Below are positions 1,910 to 3,130 of a stretch of DNA of 64,000 bases, one piece after another; position 1 is the stretch's first letter, and every line of letters starts with the position of its first letter. The notes below the pieces were generated by a model, which saw only the letters and a program-made list of their open reading frames with translations, was not told the origin of the DNA and searched no databases. This DNA comes from Pegethrix bostrychoides GSE-TBD4-15B (lineage in GTDB: Bacteria; Cyanobacteriota; Cyanobacteriia; Elainellales; Elainellaceae). A program made the translations under genes and the position numbers. Location of the stretch: assembly GCA_019359155.1 (NCBI GenBank), contig JAHHHV010000081.1:1-64000 (forward strand), given 5' to 3'.

Positions 1910-1966
1910 ATGCAGTCAACTCAACAATACTTCTATTGGTTTTTTACGAAGGTTCACCAGGGGTGA
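1910..1966 (+). CDS. Aromatic-rich leader peptide 1 upstream of DAHP synthase
   Basis: An 18-codon ORF encodes MQSTQQYFYWFFTKVHQG. It has six aromatic codons in a row (Tyr, Phe, Tyr, Trp, Phe, Phe) at 1928-1945. Its TGA stop at 1964-1966 lies inside the large hairpin that begins at 1951. No Shine-Dalgarno site is visible, which is common in cyanobacteria. Its composition, size and place before a terminator and a gene of aromatic synthesis are those of an attenuator leader peptide: ribosome speed over the aromatic codons would report the supply of charged tRNA. The role is inferred by analogy with trpL and pheL of enterobacteria; the sequence itself shows only the ORF and the hairpins. Confidence 0.75.
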   Translation: MQSTQQYFYWFFTKVHQG

Positions 1967-2018
1967 GTCCATTTTGTAATGGAGCCTGGTGAACCGCAGA
2001 TTAACCTCTGCGGTTTTT
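1951..2018 (+). promoter_or_regulatory. Attenuator 1: stable hairpin followed by intrinsic terminator
   Basis: Two structures follow the first leader ORF. The first pairs GGTTCACCAGG (1951-1961) perfectly with CCTGGTGAACC (1985-1995) and has an inner stem TCCATT/AATGGA (1968-1973 with 1978-1983). The leader stop codon lies in the internal loop. The second is a terminator, AACCGCAGA (1992-2000) with TCTGCGGTT (2007-2015) followed by a T-run and a further T-run at 2022-2026. They share 1992-1995, so full formation of one weakens the base of the other, though exclusion is only partial. Expected behaviour: a ribosome at the stop codon melts the first hairpin and favours termination; a ribosome stalled on early aromatic codons leaves it free to form. 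Confidence 0.65.
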
Positions 2019-2081: not shown

Positions 2082-2159
2082 ATGATCTCTAACTCCGTTC
2101 GCTGCTTTGGCTCTTACTTTTTTGGATTTTACTTTTGGCTCAGGAGATGCTCCGGGTGA
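2082..2159 (+). CDS. Aromatic-rich leader peptide 2 upstream of DAHP synthase
   Basis: A second short ORF of 25 codons has eight aromatic residues, with the cluster SYFFGFYFW encoded at 2112-2138 (two Tyr, five Phe, one Trp including both flanks). It ends in TGA at 2157-2159, inside the 5' arm of a hairpin that competes with a terminator. The start ATG has no clear Shine-Dalgarno site. A 13-base duplication, CTCTATTCAGTCC, at 2045-2057 and 2065-2077 precedes it. The ORF has no sequence similarity to leader 1 beyond aromatic richness and the shared placement of the stop codon, which argues that both are selected leaders rather than a simple recent duplication. Confidence 0.75.
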   Translation: MISNSVRCFGSYFFGFYFWLRRCSG

Positions 2160-2212
2160 ACTGGTCATGCTGCAACGCAACCACCCCGGAACCGCAAGGA
2201 ACCGGGTTTTTT
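2152..2212 (+). promoter_or_regulatory. Attenuator 2: antiterminator and terminator sharing one arm
   Basis: CCGGGTG at 2152-2158, covering the end of leader 2, can pair with CACCCCGG at 2182-2189 with one bulged C. The same bases 2185-2189 (CCCGG) form the 5' arm of a terminator with CCGGG at 2202-2206, followed by six T residues (2207-2212). The two folds are mutually exclusive. A ribosome waiting on the aromatic codons up to 2138 would leave 2152-2158 free and allow read-through. A ribosome reaching the stop codon would cover it and allow termination. The terminator stem is short but all G-C. The DAHP synthase start is 57 bases further on. Confidence 0.7.
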
Positions 2213-2269: not shown

Positions 2270-3130
2270 ATGCAAAAAGCTCAGCTCGCGCTCAAAGCTC
2301 ATCCCAGCCACAAGAGTCTGGTTCAAGTTTCGGAAACCGTCACTGTCGGCGGCGCAGATTTGCTAATTGTGGCTGGCCCTTGCACCGTCGAATCGCAGGC
2401 GCAGATGGAAGCTGTGGCCAGCCGCATGGCGCTGGCTCCCGTGCAGGCGCTCCGAGGCGGGGTCTATAAGCCTCGGACTTCTCCCTATGATTTCCAGGGA
2501 CTAGGGCTGGAGGGACTAAAAATTCTGGCCGCCGTGCGCGAACGCTCTGGACTACCTGTGATTACGGAAGTCATGGCGATTTCGCAGATTGCCGAAATTG
2601 CGACCTATGCGGATGTGCTGCAAGTCGGTAGCCGCAATATGCAAAACTTCGATCTGCTAAAGGCGCTGGGTAGCGTCAAGCGACCAATTTTGCTAAAGCG
2701 CGGTCTCTCTGCCACACTCGAAGAATTTGTGATGGCGGCCGAATATATCCTCAGTGCTGGCAATTCCAACGTAATCCTCTGCGAGCGCGGCATTCGCAGC
2801 TTTGACTCCTACACCCGCAACGTGCTGGATCTCGGTGCAGTGGTGGCGCTAAAGCAGATTACCCATCTGCCCGTGATTGTCGATCCCAGTCATGCGACTG
2901 GCAAGCGCGAGCTGGTAGCCGATCTCGCGCGCGGAGCAATTGCCTGCGGAGCCGATGGCCTGATTGTCGAATGCCACCCGCAGCCTGAGCAGTCAGTGTC
3001 TGATGCGCGTCAGGCGCTCTCGCTAGAAGCAATGGTAGAACTTGCCGAAAGCCTAGCTCCAATTGCCGCCGCCGTAGGCCGCAGTCTGCCTTCAACAGCC
3101 GGGATAGCGCCCCGGCTTTCGCTTGTTTAG
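2270..3130 (+). CDS. aroF: 3-deoxy-7-phosphoheptulonate (DAHP) synthase, core-only type I-beta
   Basis: The enzyme condenses phosphoenolpyruvate and erythrose 4-phosphate in the first step of the shikimate pathway to Phe, Tyr, Trp and chorismate products. Its 286 residues form one TIM-barrel domain of the DAHP/KDO8P synthase superfamily. GPCTVE (residues 36-41), KPRTSPYDFQG (67-77) and DPSHATGKRE are the substrate and metal-binding motifs; SHATGKR is typical of the I-beta branch. Many I-beta enzymes carry an N-terminal ferredoxin-like or a chorismate-mutase domain for feedback inhibition; this one has only about 30 residues before the barrel and no room for either. AGGA seven bases before the ATG supports the start. 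The two attenuators upstream suggest that control is at transcription. Confidence 0.93.
   Translation: MQKAQLALKAHPSHKSLVQVSETVTVGGADLLIVAGPCTVESQAQMEAVASRMALAPVQALRGGVYKPRTSPYDFQGLGLEGLKILAAVRERSGLPVITEVMAISQIAEIATYADVLQVGSRNMQNFDLLKALGSVKRPILLKRGLSATLEEFVMAAEYILSAGNSNVILCERGIRSFDSYTRNVLDLGAVVALKQITHLPVIVDPSHATGKRELVADLARGAIACGADGLIVECHPQPEQSVSDARQALSLEAMVELAESLAPIAAAVGRSLPSTAGIAPRLSLV

Follow-up and report, generated by a model that had tools for sequence, protein, structure and literature searches.

Two probable leader-peptide attenuators arranged in series upstream of the DAHP synthase gene aroF in cyanobacteria

DAHP synthase (3-deoxy-7-phosphoheptulonate synthase) opens the shikimate pathway and is the first enzyme of aromatic synthesis. 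In the window, which is the whole 64,000-nt stretch of DNA analyzed here, a type I gene of this kind, aroF (2270-3130; the gene, its leaders and their promoter lie on the forward strand), is preceded by short ORFs rich in aromatic codons and by bases with two possible pairing partners. The question raised by this locus is whether, and through what arrangement, the supply of aromatic amino acids determines if the gene is transcribed. The product of aroF was assigned with two NCBIfam profiles that passed their cut-offs, PRK08673 (391.6 bits) and TIGR01361 (352.2 bits), and the genome carries a single copy of the gene.

The ORF nearest to aroF, termed here leader ORF 2 (MISNSVRCFGSYFFGFYFWLRRCSG, 2082-2159), runs from ATG at 2082 to the TGA stop codon at 2157-2159, and 8 of its 25 codons are aromatic. 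Downstream of it, CCCGG at 2185-2189 is complementary to two CCGGG segments, one at the 3' end of the ORF (2152-2156) and one (2202-2206) directly in front of six T residues (2207-2212). These two pairings, and their exact mutual exclusion, had been proposed by a first-pass annotation of the region; direct reading of the sequence confirms both, since all five bases at 2185-2189 are common to the two alternatives. The full antiterminator (2151-2190) joins 2151-2158 (TCCGGGTG) with 2182-2190 (CACCCCGGA), where 2157-2158 pair with 2182-2183 and C2184 is bulged, and has a predicted energy of -15.4 kcal/mol for 2150-2190. The terminator (2185-2212), formed by 2185-2189 and 2202-2206 before the T tract, has a predicted energy of -11.8 kcal/mol; its stem is broken in this genome by AA/AA mismatches (CCCGG-AA-CC GCAA GG-AA-CCGGG) and is unbroken in most relatives (CCCGGAACC/GGTTCCGGG). 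An exact search of both strands of the 64-kb window for the three-strand pattern (5-bp pairings with four or more G/C, followed by T5) returned the leader 2 site and only one other match.

By single-sequence folding, the energy of the leader 2 region is unremarkable when compared with shuffled sequence (z 0.13). Because this measure was uninformative, relatives were compared, and it is conservation that reveals the element. Two aromatic leader ORFs precede aroF in members of the family and in other cyanobacteria, in almost all relatives, and four helices, an antiterminator and a terminator for each leader, were scored in alignments of 54 leader 2 sequences (A1) and 55 leader 1 sequences (A2). 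In leader 2, 90.1% of the antiterminator cells and 92.0% of the terminator cells are paired, with 27 and 30 cells, respectively, changed on both sides, so that the covariation in homologous upstream regions which the first-pass annotation had named as a check was indeed found. The leader 1 helices are paired in 98.6% (antiterminator) and 97.7% (terminator) of cells, and changes on both sides are few there (10 and 5 cells). When the helix registers were slid by 1-3 columns, the paired cells fell to 14-58%; shuffling of partners never attained the observed paired fraction, a comparison that is inflated by the kinship of the sequences.

The same annotation had held that its reading would fall if close relatives keeping the aromatic ORF had lost either pairing. 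Such losses were looked for in the 54 relatives, and the refutation failed: none of the 54 sequences has fewer than 6 of the 8 terminator pairs, and 50 of them retain 6 or more of the 7 pairs in the core of the antiterminator. The four exceptions were L057, which keeps 5 of the 7 pairs, and three loci in which alternative arms were recognized in the alignment by eye, namely CCGGGTCAGG/CCTGACCCGG or similar in L060 and L062 and CTCCGG/CCGGAG in L059. In leader 1, at least 6 of 8 pairs are present in both helices in 55/55 sequences. The encoded peptides follow the consensus ..YFYFWF..VHxx* for leader 1 and ..WFFGFYFWxRxSG* for leader 2, and Phe, Tyr and Trp are all represented in 58/58 leader 1 loci and in 56-57 of the 57 leader 2 loci. 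Taken with aroF downstream and a geometry that suits a translating ribosome (see below), the conserved alternative pairings and their compensatory changes support the amino-acid attenuator logic that had been ascribed to leader 2.

Leader 2 does not stand by itself. Upstream of it, window positions 1910-2018 hold the first leader, the more strongly conserved of the two, with a protector, an antiterminator and a terminator of its own. Leader ORF 1 (MQSTQQYFYWFFTKVHQG, 1910-1966) contains YFYWFF in the window. A protector hairpin over its stop codon (GGTTCAC with GTGAGTC, 1951-1969) was recovered by RNAalifold, each of its seven pairs holding in 47-55 of the 55 sequences, and competes with antiterminator 1, in which 1951-1961 pair with 1985-1995 (1951-1995, -23.2 kcal/mol). 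Terminator 1, a match of the terminator scan, pairs 1991-2000 with 2007-2016 before a run of Ts (1991-2018, -14.7 kcal/mol) and shares positions 1991-1995 with the antiterminator. Further upstream, a putative sigma-70-type promoter that would serve both leaders (TTGACT-N18-TACAGT, 1840-1869) was found by scanning, and a promoter-like site of the form TTGACn-N17/18-TAnnnT lies 5' of leader 1 in most loci.

For the distribution of this arrangement, covariance models of leader 2 (R1) and leader 1 (R2) were run on genomes sampled from the class, 195 in total. Matches to leader 1 were obtained in 71 genomes and to leader 2 in 64, each with one match per genome, as was the case for leader 2 in the genome studied here. 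An aroF orthologue is present in 70 of the 195 genomes (the split gene of G012 counted), among which the models matched leader 1 in 69 and leader 2 in 63. Without exception, the matched leaders share the strand of aroF and keep one order, with leader 1 first, leader 2 second and the gene last; the median gap is 62 nt between the two leader matches and 38 nt between leader 2 and aroF. The apparent losses suggested by the models were mostly discarded, as six of the seven leader 2 misses and the sole leader 1 miss do carry the leader when read by eye; in the latter (G087) the sequence is altered and the same logic is still visible. With these misses read, leader 1 precedes 70/70 and leader 2 69/70 of the orthologues, the remaining genome (G045) having leader 1 only. 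Leader 2 nearly always follows a complete first attenuator, apparently within the same transcript. In two genomes with leader matches no aroF match was obtained: in G145 the contig ends there, and in G135 an aroF fragment lies beside a leader 1 without terminator. No strongly aromatic leader was found within about 1 kb 5' of the sampled DAHP synthase paralogues of 53-57% identity (L152-L156 and L158), and the leader pair therefore belongs to this particular aroF orthologue; one further paralogue, L157, has a single leader of this kind.

Based on these observations, we consider it highly probable that aroF is preceded by two ribosome-mediated transcription attenuators in series behind one promoter, the second of which is the element that started this analysis. 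Each module would combine a short leader ORF, in which codons for Phe, Tyr and Trp abound, with two competing RNA structures: an antiterminator that takes its 5' arm from the end of the ORF, and an intrinsic terminator that uses some of the antiterminator's bases. Given an ample supply of charged aromatic tRNAs, the ribosome would reach the stop codon and cover the antiterminator 5' arm, allowing the terminator to form; when these tRNAs are scarce, it would stall on the aromatic codons, the antiterminator would form, and RNA polymerase would pass. Only polymerases passing both gates would transcribe aroF, and for this reason the read-through probabilities would multiply and the response to starvation would be steeper than with one gate.

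The positions of the arms suit such a mechanism. In leader 2, the start of the antiterminator arm precedes the stop codon by 6 nt in 49/57 loci, and 12 nt separate the last aromatic codon from the arm in 39 of the 57; in leader 1 the corresponding distances are 13 nt in 57/58 loci and 5 nt in 46 of the 58. If the footprint extends some 12-15 nt beyond the P site (a figure quoted at second hand in PMC3641672), a ribosome at the stop codon would cover either arm. One stalled on aromatic codons would leave the leader 2 arm free; the leader 1 arm would likewise be free except during a stall at the last of these codons. In isolation, both antiterminators are predicted to be more stable than the terminators (-23.2 vs -14.7 kcal/mol in leader 1, -15.4 vs -11.8 kcal/mol in leader 2), and by this energy model termination should need an occupied stop codon.

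The serial arrangement depends on both leaders being transcribed from the same start, and separate promoters firing the two leaders would instead make the gates parallel. In the window, terminator 1 and leader 2 are separated by a spacer of 63 nt, which is room enough for a promoter, and in L006, L010, L014 and L054 the spacer promoter scores are equal or near to the upstream ones, so that an extra promoter may exist at these four loci. Across the loci, the top-scoring promoter candidates in the spacer for the most part score below those 5' of leader 1. The start codon of leader 2 follows terminator 1 after only 18-26 nt in many Nostocales, with an AGGAG ribosome-binding-site-like sequence in between. 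Given the short spacers and lower scores, both attenuators are there very probably on one transcript, and parallel gates are a very unlikely explanation. Very unlikely, too, is the alternative that a single leader acts as an attenuator and its companion is carried along as a relic or as a simple terminator. In its favor, some genomes live with a single leader (leader 1 in L064 and G045, leader 2 in L052 and L057) and the stop codon of leader 2 is lost in two Calothrix genomes; against it, 69 of the 70 orthologues keep the aromatic ORF, antiterminator and terminator in both leaders, with compensatory changes in each, and even the changed sequence of leader 1 in G087 preserves the logic. The single-leader genomes suggest that each module may be able to work alone, and they indicate that the second gate is not indispensable. 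In the two Calothrix loci (L044 and L047), the leader 2 ORF continues into the terminator.

A further alternative concerns what is sensed. TnaC is an arrest peptide that senses tryptophan, and the leaders could likewise be arrest peptides responding in the ribosome tunnel to free aromatic amino acids rather than to charged tRNA. A small residue, mostly glycine, is kept between the aromatic blocks of leader 2 (WFFGFYFW) in many loci, so the peptide is conserved somewhat beyond its composition. Loci nevertheless differ in how many aromatic residues they have and in how these are ordered, and the residues after the aromatic block are accounted for by the antiterminator arm. Moreover, high levels of aromatic amino acids should shut a biosynthetic gene, which requires the ribosome at the stop codon and not stalled on aromatic codons. 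The probability of an arrest-peptide mechanism is accordingly regarded as very small indeed, and the serial attenuators responding to charged aromatic tRNAs are retained as the preferred model.

Leader 2 has an additional conserved feature within its antiterminator loop, behind the stop codon, where a GTCATGC motif (2163-2170) is held in most columns by 48-50 of the 54 sequences. The motif is complementary to the start region of the same leader, where CATGATC (2081-2087) is a tentative partner of 2163-2169. In a free-register test, none of 1000 shuffled partners reached the pairing score, and over 19 clusters the mean z was 3.6; in a fixed-register test the result was marginal, with 33 of 500 shuffles reaching the paired fraction. 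No protector hairpin like that of leader 1 is predicted for leader 2. One idea is that pairing with the start region might block re-initiation or serve as a protector; the motif may also be a pause site for RNA polymerase. A broader model, in which the two leaders act on one transcript as a fixed serial AND gate for the same signal, one that sharpens the response to aromatic starvation and is kept in nearly all sampled lineages with this aroF, and in which leader 2 also blocks its own start codon by pairing with the motif behind its stop codon, is offered tentatively, the case for and against it being nearly balanced.

Each module is of a known kind, an ordinary amino-acid attenuator in its logic. 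Attenuators of the E. coli trp type share with it a leader peptide rich in the regulated residues, an antiterminator opposed to an intrinsic terminator, a decision made by ribosome position and a biosynthetic gene downstream, and the stop-codon hairpin of leader 1, by competing with the antiterminator, resembles the trp 1:2 hairpin. The cyanobacterial leaders differ in that their antiterminators draw the 5' arm from the leader ORF itself, at its end, that Phe, Tyr and Trp are read jointly, and that two complete attenuators are placed in series before aroF. Tandem attenuators in the Salmonella mgtCBR leader, called a singular example by the authors, likewise combine two short ORFs with two attenuators in one leader (PMC3641672). 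The signals there are ATP and proline, with additive effects, and the stem-loops are, according to the authors, unlike intrinsic terminators (PMC3641672), whereas the cyanobacterial leaders share three amino acids and have an intrinsic terminator each. The tandem riboswitches of B. clausii metE, in the account given of them in PMC3641672, are also two serial elements with their own intrinsic terminators, but in that account the RNA binds two different ligands directly and leader peptides are absent. Upstream of aroF in Acholeplasma, the uORFC-13-1 motif comprises a candidate leader ORF with a Phe codon before an intrinsic terminator (PMC8632094); it is a single element of another structure in another phylum. 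A search for T-box and other Rfam leader families returned nothing at gathering score, and the matches that appeared at E up to 10 are attributable to chance.

A description of the cyanobacterial pair was found nowhere in the open full-text literature, a scope outside which most subscription journals lie, and a study of conserved small RNAs in heterocystous cyanobacteria (PMC4734099) does not mention it. This variant, a serial pair in which both attenuators read one set of amino acids and use intrinsic terminators, was likewise not found described there. Leader-peptide attenuation seems to be little documented in cyanobacteria, and the proposed model, if right, would name the regulator of carbon entry into aromatic synthesis for a large part of the phylum. 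The relatives that have lost one leader or the other would provide a natural experiment on why cells keep two serial gates for the same signal, a physiological reason that may lie in the steeper response.

Several other loci were noted in the course of the analysis. L142 (G135:C48:72500-75500), which keeps the leader 1 ORF, has lost the terminator and retains an aroF fragment, represents a decaying attenuated gene. At L157 (G054:C15:366300-367350), a single aromatic small ORF followed by a strong terminator-like hairpin is located 5' of a DAHP synthase gene of 55% identity. In Acidobacteriota and relatives (L068, L080, L091, L098, L100 and L106), single aromatic-rich small ORFs (e.g. SFRFWFWY) precede DAHP synthase genes and are possibly single attenuators in another phylum. 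In Photobacterium (L074, L076 and L079), a small ORF with FFSWWW 5' of a related DAHP synthase gene is a candidate Phe/Trp leader. In the window itself, the remnant of an IS4/IS701-type transposase gene occupies 584-1479, 5' of a tRNA gene at 1632-1703.
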